Part shown: piece by piece, positions 23 to 23,220 of the stretch
How the letters are laid out: the number at the start of each line of letters is the position of its first letter
How positions within the stretch are numbered: position 1 is the stretch's first letter
Source: Candidatus Zixiibacteriota bacterium
GTDB lineage: Bacteria; Zixibacteria; MSB-5A5; GN15; FEB-12
Direction of reading: 5' to 3'
Assembly: GCA_024278935.1 (NCBI GenBank)
Contig: JAJRSF010000053.1
Location: forward strand, 62,001-126,000
DNA: 64,000 nt
Translations under genes and position numbers: made by a program
The notes under the pieces: generated by a model
The model's database searches: none
Seen by the model: only the letters and a program-made list of their open reading frames with translations
Told to the model about the DNA's origin: nothing

Positions 23-2509
23 ATGATTATAAAAACAAAAAAGAAACTCTCGATAGAAGTAACCGATAAACAGGCTGTTTACCCTGTTTTACCCCTTCAA
101 ACTGGTATTTTATTTCCCGGTACAATGATTACTATTCAGGTTGGGCGTAAAGAAAATTTAGAGTTACTCAAAAGATGTGAAAATGGCTCAAAGAAATTTG
201 TTGCCGCCTATTCTCCCCATGCAAAACGAATAGAAGATTCAATTTCTCCTGTTCATCAGATTGGTGTATTAGCAGTTGTCCGAGATATAAAAGAAAGTGC
301 CGGAAACTCTGTCGTAGCAACTATTGAAGGGCTCAAAAGAGTATCTTTAAATGAAATCCAAAAAACGACACCATTTATAACTGCTAAAATTGACCTGTTG
401 CAATCATCAAAACGTGTGCCTCGAAATCTCAAGGAAAAAATAGAAGAGGTCTTACAGGTCGTTTCTGAAATTACAACTATAGCCCCAACATATTCAGATG
501 AGCATCTAAGAGTTCTGAAAATGTCCCAAGAAGACCCATCATTAATGGCCGACACAGCGGCATCGCTATTCAGGCTTTCATTAGATACGCAACAGGAGTT
601 GTTAGAATATGTCGACTTAAGTCTGCGGTTTAAATTATTACTGAAACATTTGAATGCCGAATTAAATCGAGTTGCTACGTTACATCGAATCCAAACCAAT
701 GTTGAAAAGACGTTTGAAGCTGATCAGGAAAAAAGTTTTCTACGGCAGCAGCTTCGTGAGATAAAAAAACTTCTTGGTGAAGAATTTCTTGAAGAAGAAA
801 TATCTATTGAATATAAAAATAAGATAAAATTAAATAACATGCTCCCCGGCGAAGTCGCCGCCAGAGCATTGATAGAAGCTGACCGTTTGAGTCAGTTGTC
901 AACCGCCTCGGCAGAGTTTGGTGTTACAAAAAACTATCTCGACTGGTTGATGCAATTACCATGGAAAAAATCTACTCCTGAAATTTATAAAGTTGATGAT
1001 ATCGAAAAAGTTTTATCAACAGGATATTACGGTCCGAAACAAATTAAAGATCAGATTATTCAAAAGTTGTCATTACGAAAACATCTCGGTGGTATTGACG
1101 ATGGTCCGACCCTTTGTTTGATAGGAGCTCCGGGAACAGGGAAAGCTGCCATTGCTCGAGCGATTGCTACGGCATTAGGAAAAGAATTTGTCCGTGTCTC
1201 GGTAGGTGGTATCTCCGATGCTTCTGAACTAAAAGGAACTTTACGTACATTTTTAGGAGCAATGCCCGGTAAAATTATTCAGACCCTTCGTGATGCGGGT
1301 ACATCTGACCCGGTCATGCTTATAGAAGATATCGATTATTTTAATATCGAAAATGATTCATCGGTAAATATGGCATTACTGGAAGCGGTCGATAGCCGTC
1401 TGAATTCAAAATTTTTAGATAATTATATCGGTCTGCCGTTTGATTTAAGTAAAGTTATGTTTATCTGTTCGGTTCGTTCTTACGAAGAAATCCCTGAACA
1501 GTTTATTCCACGTTTTGAACTGCTGGAACTTCCGGGTTATATTGAAAGAGAAAAAATTGTTATCACAAAACGATATATCCTTCCGCAACTATTGAAAAAA
1601 CATGGATTAACAAAATCTGAATTTAAGTTGTCAGATAAAATCCTAGCACAATTAATTGCGACATACACTCAAGAGGCAGGACTCTTAGGCTTGTCTCAAC
1701 AGCTTGATAAAATTTTCAGAAAAATCTTGTTGGAAAAAGTAACACGTAAAAAGAAAAAATGGATTCTTACAGAAAATAATCTTGAAACTTATCTTGGACT
1801 TCCATATTATATTCCTGAAATAGCAGAAAAAGAACCGGAGATTGGTATAGCGGCAGGTCTTGCTTGGACAGGTGCCGGTGGCGACTTGATGTTTATTGAA
1901 GGTATCAAAATGCGTGGGGAAGGGCAGATTACTTCGACAGGTTCGTTAGGTGAAGTGATGAAAGAATCTATTCAAGCAGCCCATTCGTATGTACGTTCAA
2001 AAGCCGACGCACTTGGTATTGATTTTAATGATTTTTCTGAGTTTGATATTCATATCCATTTCCCGTCGGGTGCGATTCCGAAAGATGGACCTTCCGCCGG
2101 AGTAACTGTCAGTTTAGTGTTAGCATCGATTTTGTCGGAACGACCTATTCGAAATGATATAGCGATGACCGGTGAAGTGACATTGCGGGGGAGAGTGTTG
2201 CAGGTTGGGGGAATCAAAGAAAAAGTATCAGCCGCATATCGTGCCGGTATTTATCATGTTGCTGTTCCGAAAGCTAATGAAAATGATATTAAAGAATTAC
2301 CTAAAGAGATTCTGCGTAAAACTAAAATCAGCTATTTAGAAAAGGTTGATGACCTTTTTAAATTATGCTTGCTAGACTTTACACCATCTACATTTACTCT
2401 CGAAAAGATATTTGCTGATGAAGTCAAAAAGGCAAAGCGAAAATCTCGCGCTGCCAAGACAAAGATTACTAAGGCAAAAGCGGCCAAGAAAAAAGCAGTT
2501 AAGAAATAA
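23..2509 (+). CDS. lon: Lon-family protease with degenerate AAA+ domain
   Basis: This 828-residue protein has the Lon architecture: an N-terminal substrate-binding domain (about 20-215), a helical linker, an AAA+ module (about 330-620) and a C-terminal serine protease domain (about 640-800). The protease Ser-Lys dyad is intact: S691 in KDGPSAG and K734 in GGIKEK. The ATPase motifs are not. Walker A is GAPGTGKA (368-375), with Ala after the lysine. The Walker B acidic pair is E435-D436 instead of D-E. Sensor 1 Asn is R485, and the sensor 2 Arg position is L555. The Arg-finger context (FIPRFELL) remains. A tail rich in Lys and Ala (about the last 30 residues) follows the protease domain. Lon normally degrades unfolded and regulatory proteins using ATP. 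Here unfolding may be weak or absent, which is inference. Family assignment is secure and activity is uncertain. Confidence 0.93.
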   Translation: MIIKTKKKLSIEVTDKQAVYPVLPLQTGILFPGTMITIQVGRKENLELLKRCENGSKKFVAAYSPHAKRIEDSISPVHQIGVLAVVRDIKESAGNSVVATIEGLKRVSLNEIQKTTPFITAKIDLLQSSKRVPRNLKEKIEEVLQVVSEITTIAPTYSDEHLRVLKMSQEDPSLMADTAASLFRLSLDTQQELLEYVDLSLRFKLLLKHLNAELNRVATLHRIQTNVEKTFEADQEKSFLRQQLREIKKLLGEEFLEEEISIEYKNKIKLNNMLPGEVAARALIEADRLSQLSTASAEFGVTKNYLDWLMQLPWKKSTPEIYKVDDIEKVLSTGYYGPKQIKDQIIQKLSLRKHLGGIDDGPTLCLIGAPGTGKAAIARAIATALGKEFVRVSVGGISDASELKGTLRTFLGAMPGKIIQTLRDAGTSDPVMLIEDIDYFNIENDSSVNMALLEAVDSRLNSKFLDNYIGLPFDLSKVMFICSVRSYEEIPEQFIPRFELLELPGYIEREKIVITKRYILPQLLKKHGLTKSEFKLSDKILAQLIATYTQEAGLLGLSQQLDKIFRKILLEKVTRKKKKWILTENNLETYLGLPYYIPEIAEKEPEIGIAAGLAWTGAGGDLMFIEGIKMRGEGQITSTGSLGEVMKESIQAAHSYVRSKADALGIDFNDFSEFDIHIHFPSGAIPKDGPSAGVTVSLVLASILSERPIRNDIAMTGEVTLRGRVLQVGGIKEKVSAAYRAGIYHVAVPKANENDIKELPKEILRKTKISYLEKVDDLFKLCLLDFTPSTFTLEKIFADEVKKAKRKSRAAKTKITKAKAAKKKAVKK

Positions 2510-2607: not shown

Positions 2608-2790
2608 ATTTAGTGTGTGTGAATTTAAAACAAAATCGAATTCAAGCTAAATGTACATATATTATTTCAACGTTAGTTTATTTACATATCTATTTTTACA
2701 ATAAAAGAAGAACCGTATACAATTGAGCGGAAGTATTGATATTATGGGTGTAATCATAAATAAAAAATAAAATTGCATGGAGGCAATCTG

Positions 2791-5115
2791 TTGAAAAGAA
2801 TAACTGTTTGTTTGCTAGTTGTAATGCTATTGTTGTGTGCCGGGAAGACATTTTCACAATCTATAACTCTCGACGGTGTCAGTGGTGGTGTCAGTAACGA
2901 TACTATATTTGTAAATCAACAAGTTCAATTTAATATTCGAATGAATGCCGGTGGTTTTGATGATTTCTCAGGCATAACAAACGGATTTCGAATTTACTCT
3001 CCTGATGGTGCCGGATGGACTACGACTGTTGGTGATACATTGCCACTTGGGTGGGGAACATGGTTTGATTTAGTATTTAACATTGCACATTTTTCAATAA
3101 CCGGTACAGATGCTGACACAGTTGGTTTTGGTGGTGCAATTATTTTTGGACCAGGATTAGCACCTAATTTTAACGAAGTGTCTTATAAGATAAATATCGG
3201 TCCTATTGATGCATTGTCACACAAAAAACAAATTTGTATAGACTCATCTTTATTTGGTCTCGCTGGAAATTGGAAATGGGCAGGTCCTACAACAATCCCA
3301 TCATGGGATGGACCTCATTGTTATACCGTGATTGACCCATCAGCTCCTGCGGACCCATCAAATATTGTCCTCTCAACGGACTTCTTAGATTTTACCGCTA
3401 TAGAAGGTGGCGTTGCTCCGGCATCACAGTCATTTGATGTATTAACAGACCAAGACCCATTTAATTTTACTTTAGTCGAAACAGCAAGCTGGTTGATTGT
3501 CAGCCCAACGTCTGGTTCATCTGGTCAAACGATTCTCACCTCGGTAAACACAACCAGTCTAACTGCCGGAACATATGTTGATTCAATTGAAGTGATTGCT
3601 CCCACCACAGATAATTCATCACAATGGGTCATCGTAAACTTGGTAGTTGAACCTCCACCTCCGACAATCGGAGTATCGCCGACGTTCCTCTTTTTCAATG
3701 CTGTTGCCGGTGAAGCAAATCCAAGTGATAAAATAATCTCAATCTTTAATGATAATCCCGGGAGTTCAAATCTGGAGTGGTCGCTTTCAAATAATGAAAG
3801 CTGGTTGTCCTTGTCGATAACATCTGGAACGAATTCTCTAAATGTCACCGTTTCAATTGATATTACTGGTTTAGGATTTAATGAATACTCTGATACGATT
3901 GTCATTACTGATCCAAATGCGACCAATAGTCCTATGAAAGTCCCTGTGACTCTTTCTGTGAGTTCCGACTTGCCGCTTATTGCTGTCGATTCATCATTTA
4001 ACTATCTCATAATTCCGGGTGGCGTTGCGACGATACCAAATAGAGAAATCTTGATTTACAATGGTGGAGCCGGAGGTATGACCTATAGTTTAAGTGAATC
4101 ATCAGAACGGATATTTACTTTAACACCATCATCAGGTACTGCCCCAGAGACAGTCTCTGTCGGTTTTAAAATCACGAGTGGTCATTCCGGTGAAGATTTC
4201 ACAGATACTTTATGGGTAAGTTCTCCCGAAGCAATAAACTCACCATATCCGGTTGTCTTTCATTTTCATTTTGTAAATATCCCGGGACAAATTGTCATGC
4301 CTGATACTGTTGAAGTAGATGTCTATGAATGTGACCAAGGTGCTTTTGCTTTGGACCCTCAATGGTTTTTCTCGGTTAGTAATGTCTCAAATGGTGAACT
4401 CTTTTACCCTGACTTTGAGTTTGAATCTGATCTATTTAGATTAGAATTTGAAAATAACTCTTTACCTGAATTCGTTTCTGTTGTTGCTAATGATTTACAG
4501 CTTCCACTGGGAAGTTACTATGATACAATAACAGTTTCTGCTTTAAATGCGGCAAATTCCCCACAAACAATTATTGTAAAATACAATGTTATTCCGGGCG
4601 ATAAAACGCCGGAAATTGCACTTCTATCAAGAAATTATGAAATTGTTGCAAGGGCGAATGTCGGACCATTACGAGATGCCGTCGTACTTGTTTTAAATCT
4701 TTTTGGTGGGTGTATGGAATGGAGTGTCTTTGAAAATATTGCTTGGTTAGAACCTATCAATATAATAGAAAATGTTCCCGGTGGATTTGGTATACTAGTC
4801 GATGTTGACGGATTTGAATCAGGAATTTATTATGATACGTTAGAAATAGTTTCACCTTCTGCTACGAACTCTCCTAAAGAGATTTCTTTTGAACTCAAAG
4901 TTTGGGATCTCGCTGGTGACTTAAATTGGAATGGAGCTATTGATATTACAGATATTGTACTTATGGTAGAGTTTTTCTTTTTAGATGGTGCTGCTCCTAT
5001 TCCTGAACGAAGAGTTGGTGATTTAAACTGCGACTTTAAAGTTGATATTACTGATGTTGTCATTTGGGTTGATTTTGTGTTTAACCATGGACCTGCTCCT
5101 TGTGGAAATCCATAA
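2791..5115 (+). CDS. secreted protein with BACON-like repeats and C-terminal dockerin
   Basis: The start is taken as TTG at 2791 because GGAGG (2779-2783) sits 7 bases before it. This gives a clean signal peptide (LKRITVCLLVVMLLLCAG) and a 774-residue product. After an N-terminal beta-rich region there are several repeats of about 90-100 residues resembling BACON/viral-Ig-like domains, with W-L/S-x-S-G type signatures (for example ASWLIVSPTSG, ESWLSLSITSG) and recurring D-T-I/L-x-V-x-x-P-x-A-x-N-S-P strands. The last ~65 residues form a dockerin-like pair of EF-hand-type loops (GDLNWNGAIDITD and GDLNCDFKVDITD). Dockerins bind cohesins. No cohesin gene is visible here, and such tails in environmental phyla may anchor proteins by unknown means. 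It is monocistronic, with a strong terminator right after it. The substrate is unknown. Confidence 0.8.
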   Translation: MKRITVCLLVVMLLLCAGKTFSQSITLDGVSGGVSNDTIFVNQQVQFNIRMNAGGFDDFSGITNGFRIYSPDGAGWTTTVGDTLPLGWGTWFDLVFNIAHFSITGTDADTVGFGGAIIFGPGLAPNFNEVSYKINIGPIDALSHKKQICIDSSLFGLAGNWKWAGPTTIPSWDGPHCYTVIDPSAPADPSNIVLSTDFLDFTAIEGGVAPASQSFDVLTDQDPFNFTLVETASWLIVSPTSGSSGQTILTSVNTTSLTAGTYVDSIEVIAPTTDNSSQWVIVNLVVEPPPPTIGVSPTFLFFNAVAGEANPSDKIISIFNDNPGSSNLEWSLSNNESWLSLSITSGTNSLNVTVSIDITGLGFNEYSDTIVITDPNATNSPMKVPVTLSVSSDLPLIAVDSSFNYLIIPGGVATIPNREILIYNGGAGGMTYSLSESSERIFTLTPSSGTAPETVSVGFKITSGHSGEDFTDTLWVSSPEAINSPYPVVFHFHFVNIPGQIVMPDTVEVDVYECDQGAFALDPQWFFSVSNVSNGELFYPDFEFESDLFRLEFENNSLPEFVSVVANDLQLPLGSYYDTITVSALNAANSPQTIIVKYNVIPGDKTPEIALLSRNYEIVARANVGPLRDAVVLVLNLFGGCMEWSVFENIAWLEPINIIENVPGGFGILVDVDGFESGIYYDTLEIVSPSATNSPKEISFELKVWDLAGDLNWNGAIDITDIVLMVEFFFLDGAAPIPERRVGDLNCDFKVDITDVVIWVDFVFNHGPAPCGNP

Positions 5116-5179: not shown

Positions 5180-5310
5180 GTCTGAGGACTTATTATAGAC
5201 GTGAAAAGTCTCATATAAGTTATTATTTTTTAATGTACATTTTTTATATTTTTATGTATCTTAACTCAATGAAAATCGACCGGGTTGAAATGAATTTAAA
5301 AGAAGAAAAA

Positions 5311-6636
5311 ATGAGCATGCAACAAAATAAAAAGATAGAAACTTTCCATATCTCAACCTACGGTTGCCAAATGAATATCGCAGACTCTTCAATATTGGCT
5401 ACTAGCTTAATAACCCGAGGCTACCGTCGGGTCGCAGACGAAAAAGATGCTGATCTGATAGTTCTCAATACCTGCTCGGTACGTGAAAAAGCTGAATCAA
5501 GAATATTTGGTCGGTTAGGGGAAATTTATAAATACAAACGCGAGAAACCGTATATGAAAATTGCGGTGGTTGGTTGTATGGCACAGCGTTTAGGTGATGA
5601 ACTGATTGAAAAAGTACCTCATGTTGATTTTGTTCTCGGTACCGACCGACTTTTTGAACTACCTGATGCTCTCGAGGGTATCGAAGGTACCAGTTCTGTT
5701 ATGACTGCCTTTGGACATGAAAATATTGATATGATTGAGCCGGTGAAAGAGACTCCGTTCTCAGGGTTTGTTACTATTTCTCGTGGCTGTGATAATTATT
5801 GTACCTATTGTATCGTCCCATATGTACGGGGCAAAGAAGTTTCTCATTCTGATGATTACATTGTTGATGCTGTGAAGAAAATGGTTGATGAGGGAGTTGT
5901 CGAGGCGACCCTTTTAGGACAAAATGTCAATAGCTACAAATATGAAGATACTGATTTCCCAAAATTGTTAACGCGTGTTGCAAAAGAATCCGGTATTAAA
6001 CGTCTGCGGTATATGACTTCTCATCCTAAAGATTTATCAAAGCGATTAGTCGATGACATGGCTGACGACCCGATAATCTTGCCACATATTCATCTGCCGT
6101 TCCAAGCAGGTTCAAACAGAGTCTTACAAAAAATGGGACGTATTTATACTATCTAACATTATATGAAAGTTATCGACTATATTAAAAAGTCTTTGCCGTA
6201 TGTGGTGCTGACAACTGATATTATTGTTGGGTATCCATCTGAAACAGAGTCAGAATTTGAAGAGACGTTAAAAACAGTTTCAGAAGTGAGATATGATTCG
6301 GCATTTATGTTCCGCTATTCTGTCCGTCCCGGTACTGTTGCTGCTGATTACGATGACGATGTTCCCGAAGCAGATAAAATCCGAAGATTACAAAAACTTA
6401 TCAAATTGCAACAAGGAATTTCATACGAGCAGAACCAGCGTGAAATCGGTCAGGTTCGCTATGGACTTGTCGAAGGATATTCAAAACGTTCTCCTGAAAA
6501 AATGAGAGCAAGAACAGAGGGGAATAAGACAGTGCTTTTTGATGCTCATGATATCCCTGAAGGTACAATTGTTCCTGTGAAAATCTCGGCTGCCGATGCC
6601 TTCACCTTACACGGAAAGATTGCGGAACCAAACTAA
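5311..6636 (+). pseudogene. miaB: MiaB tRNA-2-methylthiotransferase, interrupted by an in-frame TAA
   Basis: MiaB converts i6A37 to ms2i6A37 in tRNAs that read UNN codons. All parts of the family are present: the UPF0004 domain with its three cluster cysteines (TYGCQMN, NTCSVREK, VGCMAQR), the radical-SAM motif CDNYCTYC, and a C-terminal TRAM domain. A TAA at 6154-6156 breaks the frame where relatives have a charged residue after Y-T-x (YTI*HYMKVIDY); GAA to TAA would be one substitution. The frame is otherwise open to 6636, so there is no frameshift. An ATG at 6163 lies six bases after the stop and could restart the second half. The start at 5311 follows AAAAGAAGAAAAA and fits the family N-terminus better than the earlier ATG at 5233. 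It may be a true nonsense mutation, a sequencing error, or a two-part protein. Confidence 0.88.
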
Positions 6637-22196: not shown

Positions 22197-22877
22197 TTAC
22201 CTCCATAAAAATGATATATTTTGACATGGGAAAACGCAAAAAAACTCAACAAGTTTCCATTCTCTCAGCCACAACAACTCTTCTTTCAAAGTTCGCATCA
22301 TTCGTTCGGTATCAGCATTACCTTTCGGATTATTATAACTCGTAAATGCCTGATGAACTCCAAGATGAGAACATACTTTCATAAAAGTTGTCGAGGTAGG
22401 CTGGCTTCCATTATCAGACATCAAGTGAAGCGTATGATCACGCACGCCATCCGGGAACTGCCTGTTGATGCCCATATCCAACGCATTCAGCCAATCTCTC
22501 GTGACGGCACGATGACCGGTATGATGTCCGACTATCTTCTTCGTGTACCAATCCAAAACGATTACAATATAGACCCAACCGTTATCACTCATTACTTTAG
22601 TCATGTCGATTCCCCACCATTCGTTAGGATAACTCGGACGTGGTTTCTTCTTATCTGATATACGCTTCGCTTTGAGTCTTGTGTTGGCTGTGACAATCAA
22701 ATTATGTCTTTTCATTAAACGAAGTACACGTTTTCTATTGACAATAACATTCTCAACATACCGAAGATACGCCCATACCCGACGATAGCCCCAGAAAGGA
22801 TGCTCACATTTCAACTGACGAATTTGTTCAAGAATATGCTTATTTCGCTCTTCTACTGATTCAGACGGCAATCTCAT
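22197..22877 (-). pseudogene. IS3-family transposase orfB, 3' truncated
   Basis: The integrase-core transposase is 226 residues long: an HTH_21-like region (HPFWGYRRVWAYLRY), then the DDE core with D in WGIDMTKV, D in HLMSDNGSQP and E in NADTERMMRTLKEE. After LLWLREW the sequence leaves the family and stops, losing roughly 40-50 C-terminal residues. ATGA overlap with orfA and GAGGAGGT just upstream show it was translated by coupling rather than only by frameshifting. Confidence 0.85.
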
Positions 22878-23220
22878 ACCTCCTCGTCCTCGAGTTTTTT
22901 TAACTCGAATGTGACTGCTCCAAGTGTCTGCTCTAAATTAAGTATCCGTTTCTTCAAACGATCTTCTTTGGTTACATTACTATTGTTTTCAAAAGCTCGA
23001 TACGATTCTGATAAAAACTTATCTCGCCAAAGATAATATTGATTCTGACTGATTTGATATTTAGTACAAACTTCTGATACCGACATACCTGAAAGTCCTT
23101 CTAAGACAATCTTGGCTTTGGTTTTTGAGTCCCATTTTCTGCGTTTCATGAGCTTCTCCTTTGTGAGTTCTATCAAATGATAATCTCTTAACAATACCTG
23201 TCAACTAATGGGGGGCAGTA
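22199..23220 (-). mobile_element. IS3-family insertion sequence remnant
   Basis: Two overlapping transposase genes (orfA, orfB) on the minus strand. The orfA-side end is marked by TACTGCCCCCCATTAG (minus strand, 23220 inwards), resembling IS3/IS150-type termini. No matching inverted repeat is visible at the orfB end, where the transposase is cut short near 22250, so the element is truncated and probably immobile. It lies about 65 bases downstream of tRNA-Ala. Confidence 0.8.
22874..23149 (-). CDS. IS3-family transposase orfA (HTH_Tnp_1)
   Basis: A helix-turn-helix DNA-binding protein of about 91 residues: KRRKWDSKTKAKIVLEGLSG, then SVSEVCTKYQISQNQYYLWRDKF, and a C-terminal coiled coil (LKKRILNLEQTLGAVTFELKKLE). 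The start is ATG 23149 with AAGGAG six bases upstream; the frame extends further but without a ribosome binding site. Confidence 0.88.
   Translation of the reverse strand: MKRRKWDSKTKAKIVLEGLSGMSVSEVCTKYQISQNQYYLWRDKFLSESYRAFENNSNVTKEDRLKKRILNLEQTLGAVTFELKKLEDEEV

Follow-up and report, generated by a model that had tools for sequence, protein, structure and literature searches.

A LonA-type protease paralogue of Zixibacteria with an intact Ser-Lys dyad and remodelled ATPase motifs

Lon is the textbook single-chain machine that couples ATP-driven unfolding with proteolysis. In AAA+ proteins, the Walker A threonine and the Walker B aspartate hold Mg2+, the Walker B glutamate activates water, and sensors 1 and 2, together with the arginine finger, act on the gamma phosphate. 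The stretch of DNA analysed here (64,000 nucleotides, hereafter the window) belongs to a Zixibacteria MAG (3.4 Mb, 68 contigs, 95% complete) and contains a lon gene in which several of these residues are replaced and the proteolytic residues are intact.

The window gene codes for a full LonA-type protein, which passes the NCBIfam model for endopeptidase La (TIGR00763) with 695 bits against a cut-off of 608. The interval considered in the initial annotation (1121-2290) corresponds to residues 367-756 of the 828-amino acid protein, that is, to the AAA+ and protease part. The features of the gene are the following:

23-2509, plus strand: lon paralogue, 828 amino acids, with degenerate ATPase and intact protease (open reading frame; TIGR00763; orthologues in relatives)
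80-655, plus strand: LonA N-terminal substrate-binding domain, residues 20-211 (PF02190, 111 bits)
656-1012, plus strand: helical/coiled-coil part, about residues 212-330 (AlphaFold2 helices 199-311)
1013-1759, plus strand: AAA+ module with lid, about residues 331-579 (PF00004, PF22667)
1124-1147, plus strand: Walker A GAPGTGKA, residues 368-375, with Lys374 kept and Thr replaced by Ala375 (alignment, motif counts)
1250-1252, plus strand: aromatic position of pore loop 1, Phe410 (Tyr398 in E. coli) (motif counts)
1325-1330, plus strand: Walker B pair Glu435-Asp436, replacing Asp-Glu (alignment, motif counts)
1475-1477, plus strand: sensor 1 position, Arg485 replacing Asn (alignment, motif counts)
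1511-1513, plus strand: arginine finger Arg497, kept (alignment, motif counts)
1685-1687, plus strand: sensor 2 position, Leu555 replacing Arg (alignment, motif counts)
1769-2371, plus strand: Lon protease domain, residues 583-783 (PF05362, 267 bits)
2093-2095, plus strand: catalytic Ser691 (kept in 226/226 Lons)
2222-2224, plus strand: catalytic Lys734 (kept in 226/226 Lons)
2375-2506, plus strand: clade-specific C-terminal extension, residues 785-828, a TPSxxTLEKIF helix and a Lys/Arg-rich tail (sequence comparison; predicted helix 793-827)

We aligned the window protein with E. coli K-12 Lon and some 70 relatives, numbering the motifs as in the E. coli enzyme (PMC9569914). By alignment to E. 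coli K-12 Lon, the Walker A lysine is retained (Lys374, LysEc362) and the Walker A threonine is lost (Ala375, ThrEc363), the Walker B pair is swapped (Glu435-Asp436, AspEc423-GluEc424), and the asparagine of sensor 1 (Arg485, AsnEc473) and the arginine of sensor 2 (Leu555, ArgEc542) are both missing. The Ser-Lys dyad is present (Ser691, SerEc679, inside the PKDGPSAG motif, and Lys734, LysEc722). All of the residues named in the initial annotation (Lys374, Ala375, Glu435-Asp436, Arg485, Leu555, Ser691 and Lys734) were correctly assigned, and nowhere did the alignment place canonical motifs at other positions. Two retained elements had gone unmentioned there, the arginine finger (Arg497, ArgEc484) and the P-loop glycines.

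We compared ten key residues (Gly356, Lys362, Thr363, Asp423, Glu424, Asn473, Arg484, Arg542, Ser679 and Lys722, E. coli numbering), five of which serve hydrolysis (Asp423, Glu424, Asn473, Arg484 and Arg542), across 226 non-redundant Lons in which every site could be read. All ten are intact in 124 sequences, which include the Lons of E. coli, Myxococcota, Bdellovibrionota and Gemmatimonadota and other Lons of Zixibacteria. The remaining 102 have lost three to five of the five hydrolysis residues, and all fall either in a degenerate Zixibacteria clade or in one branch of the Gemmatimonadota clade that is its sister. None of these 102 keeps the Asp-Glu pair of Walker B, and none keeps both arginines; the Ser-Lys dyad is present in every one and the Walker A lysine in 101. 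This pattern is far from chance, since 124 of the 226 Lons are fully intact and the deviants are confined to two related branches.

Within the order to which the window's genome belongs, the combination comprises GKA in Walker A, Glu-Asp in Walker B, arginine or lysine at sensor 1 (serine in family f2), a retained arginine finger and leucine or isoleucine at sensor 2. Among the 66 GKA-type sequences, alanine occupies position 363 in all, and Glu423, Asp424 and the arginine finger are each found in 65. Elsewhere in the clade, the Walker B pair is Asp-Asp in families f9 and f10, the arginine finger is lost in f7, f8, f11, f12 and part of f17, and sensor 2 is kept in f8, f11 and f12. The pore loop 1 tyrosine (Tyr398), present in 124/124 canonical Lons, is variable in the degenerate clade, with phenylalanine in the window protein and glutamate, aspartate, methionine, leucine or serine in others. 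In the window's order, the altered motif thus appears to be fixed rather than drifting: the motif changes described in the initial annotation as erosion are real, but "remodelled and conserved" suits this order better.

The degenerate AAA+ part is under purifying selection. Among genomes of the same genus, its dN is 0.07-0.14 and its dN/dS, where dS (near saturation) could be estimated, about 0.03-0.06, close to the 0.035-0.07 obtained for the same part of canonical Lons. Column conservation in the GKA-type clade is higher in the protease domain (0.83) than in the AAA+ part (0.71), and this order is reversed in the canonical set (0.64 and 0.68, respectively), the two sets differing in breadth.

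Contigs C62 and C19 of the genome each carry a further full Lon, canonical by motif and sharing 35-37% identity with the window protein; the check for a second canonical lon proposed in the initial annotation thus comes out in its favour. Three Lons per genome were found in most of the 60 relatives searched. Orthologues with GKA and Glu-Asp are present in all four families of the window's order (44-85% identity), and more diverged degenerate copies in nine further Zixibacteria families (f5, f7-f12, f17 and f18). Families f6 and f13-f15 showed a single Lon, canonical where motifs were readable, and f16 showed two canonical Lons, so that the degenerate paralogue is phylum-wide, yet not universal. 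The genomes compared are mostly MAGs; contigs were scanned with protease-domain patterns of the degenerate clade, which is not a census of degenerate Lons in other phyla, and a phylum-level search meant to reach past the class led to the same 97 genomes again. In four f11 copies (L183, L184, L185 and L329), the open frame begins near the position of residues 256-274 of the window protein, leaving them without the LonA N domain and with a layout close to LonC-like; some degenerate copies of f11 have stop codons within the extended match.

Two trees were calculated, one with 73 Lons and the other on 508 columns that exclude the AAA+ domain, both quick, without bootstraps and with LonC sequences left out. 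In the first, every degenerate Zixibacteria copy falls in one clade (SH-aLRT 100), the sister of which is a Gemmatimonadota Lon clade, and the C62 and C19 copies belong to separate canonical clades. The second recovered the same degenerate Zixibacteria clade (99) and Gemmatimonadota sister clade (100), so we rejected the possibility that the grouping is an artefact of a shared motor loss. Canonical (L135, L139, L265, L278 and L289) and degenerate (L151, L157, L294 and L302) members of the Gemmatimonadota clade lie on separate branches, the canonical Zixibacteria Lons L188 and L192 branch just outside, and the degenerate clade is nested among canonical LonA sequences in both trees. The simplest reading would be a canonical ancestor followed by two losses of the motor, that in the Gemmatimonadota branch being apparently independent of that in Zixibacteria.

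The window protein shares with LonA (TIGR00763; E. coli, Thermus, human LONP1) the N domain, the AAA+ module, the lid and the type-A site PKDGPSAG in one chain, but it differs in the replacement of the Walker A threonine, the Walker B pair and sensors 1 and 2, and in the addition of a C-terminal helix and a basic tail. From the LonA hydrolysis-motif set, only the P-loop lysine and the arginine finger are kept. We thus regard it as a LonA by architecture and descent, although, as judged from its motifs, not an ATP-dependent one. In LonC (MEROPS S16.007; MtaLonC from Meiothermus taiwanensis), a Lon protease domain also follows an AAA-like domain without hydrolysis residues, and ATP-independent action on unfolded proteins was demonstrated for MtaLonC (PMC3391209). 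LonC, however, has no LonA N domain, which the window protein has (PF02190), and carries two insertions in the protease domain (α3-β9 loop and helix α5) that the window protein lacks: its protease domain aligns without gaps to that of E. coli Lon across the insertion region, its 201 residues matching the 201 Lon_C positions. Membership of LonC was therefore rejected, and a resemblance to it is expected in function. The degenerate Gemmatimonadota branch has likewise lost the Walker B aspartate and sensors 1 and 2 and kept the dyad; it differs in having a Glu-Glu pair, leucine at the arginine finger, glycine at sensor 2 and no LEKIF-type tail. The arginine finger is thus lost there, as in some Zixibacteria families, whereas the window protein retains Arg497. 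A limited literature search found neither a description of a motor-dead LonA clade nor a paper naming both Zixibacteria and Lon protease.

The AlphaFold2 model (48-row alignment, mean pLDDT 86) shows the normal Lon domain set, with a pTM of 0.59 indicating uncertain domain placement, and its best Foldseek matches are LonA structures. The C-terminal extension marks the degenerate clade, with a TPSxxTLEKIFAxE helix followed by the Lys/Arg-rich tail; canonical Zixibacteria Lons have no such helix, and several have short basic tails. As a guess, the basic tail might bind nucleic acid or polyphosphate.

In the window's order and in f9, lon lies downstream of a gene for a Hel308/Ski2-like helicase and is followed by genes for a BACON-domain protein, a peptidase-like protein, MiaB and a GAF-domain protein; an ExbB/ExbD/TonB-like cluster lies upstream (the labels "peptidase-like" and "ExbB/ExbD/TonB-like" are our reading of the sequences and not search results). 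The gap between the helicase gene and lon is 50-330 bases in most genomes and 3.2 kb in the window's genome, where opposite-strand ORFs, including ApbE, DUF3570 and redoxin, intervene. Since both genes are part of a larger conserved block, and given this spacing and the intervening opposite-strand genes, a functional link between lon and the helicase was set aside. In a relative (L226:5973-8687), the latter is a Hel308/Ski2-type protein that matches PDB 2zj2 (E 5.5e-46) and whose C-terminal part is long, and in the window's genome its second half has no Pfam match. The helicase gene of the latter genome, although conserved, has an in-frame TAG (L225:9477-9482, contig C54, some 4.5 kb before the window begins) at a position occupied by tryptophan in L226, the second nonsense codon in a short stretch of this MAG. 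The other is a TAA at 6154-6156 that splits miaB (5233-6636, plus strand; GRIYTI*HYMKV) where most relatives have glutamate (YTIEHY), either a sequencing error or a real nonsense codon. The BACON-domain protein directly 3' of lon (2773-5115, plus strand; 780 amino acids) has a dockerin-like C-terminus, and its position is conserved in many Zixibacteria. Farther along the window (22197-23194, minus strand), two adjoining ORFs resemble, by sequence reading only, an IS3-type transposase pair.

We consider it probable that Zixibacteria possess in the degenerate paralogue a third, specialised Lon: a LonA-type ring with a working protease and a hydrolysis-dead, nucleotide-binding AAA+ module, which would cleave unfolded substrates without ATP-driven unfolding; the paralogue without normal ATP-driven unfolding suggested in the initial annotation is the best reading. 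With the Mg2+-holding threonine, the Asp-Glu arrangement and both sensors gone, ATP would not be hydrolysed and no power stroke would follow: hydrolysis should be abolished, as four elements are altered together. The intact P-loop suggests that the AAA+ ring probably still binds nucleotide, and nucleotide could plausibly serve as a static signal, since the P-loop lysine and glycines are almost invariant. Such a ring may act as a static gate, perhaps stabilised by nucleotide, that admits unfolded polypeptides to the proteolytic chamber, and the two canonical Lons of the same cell would handle ATP-driven unfolding. Two precedents lead us to infer such a non-hydrolysing, nucleotide-binding ring degrading unfolded substrates: the ATPase-deficient Lon variant E424Q retains peptidase activity in assays started with ATP, so that nucleotide may be required for activity (PMC11986505), and MtaLonC, which has no ATPase activity, both binds nucleotide and breaks down unfolded proteins (PMC3391209).

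Mixed rings or altered hydrolysis nevertheless stay conceivable, as the P-loop and the arginine finger are retained. A broader proposal, which we hold as doubtful, is that of a phylum-wide pseudo-ATPase LonA that arose two or more times in sister lineages. It would either contribute protease sites and arginine fingers to mixed rings with canonical Lon or serve as a static gate by binding nucleotide independently of Mg2+ (alanine at the Mg-coordinating position, arginine or lysine at sensor 1). Such mixed rings, in which the degenerate subunit would give protease sites, a trans arginine finger and a regulatory or targeting tail and the canonical subunits would hydrolyse ATP, seem unlikely. The same genomes do carry canonical Lons, and the finger, whose target is the nucleotide of the adjacent subunit, persists in 65/66 GKA-type sequences with the cis elements gone; but the identity to canonical Lons is just 35-37%, the families f7, f8, f11, f12 and part of f17 lack the finger, and we know of no hetero-oligomeric Lon.

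Slow or altered hydrolysis would be possible from the P-loop lysine, the arginine finger and the acidic residues at both Walker B positions that remain in the window's order, and from the pore loop 1 phenylalanine of the window protein. A slower or differently regulated ATPase whose active site is unusual (Glu-Asp pair, arginine or lysine at sensor 1) might account for replacements fixed in the order as if selected (Ala363, Glu423, Asp424 and mostly Arg/Lys473), but we judge it quite improbable given the simultaneous change of four hydrolysis elements, the clearly dead Walker B combinations of sister families (Glu-Gly, Glu-Gln and Glu-Pro) and the variability of the pore loop. Pseudogene decay or an artefact of assembly, which the in-frame stops in two conserved nearby genes of the MAG and the shortened f11 copies could suggest, is extremely improbable and was rejected on motif and reading-frame conservation and dN/dS, the intact frame and the same motifs recurring, at 44-85% identity, across dozens of genomes, under strong purifying selection, with the dyad always kept and gene order conserved.

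If the degenerate paralogue is, as we favour, a hydrolysis-dead LonA with a working protease, the annotation "endopeptidase La" (TIGR00763) can mask an inactive ATPase. A conserved, full-length LonA clade without the motor but with the protease, whose cells also hold canonical paralogues and whose loss was apparently repeated independently in a second phylum, would be a natural experiment on the dependence of Lon proteolysis on its motor, and it supplies defined natural sequences with which peptidase activity, gating and mixed rings may be tested.
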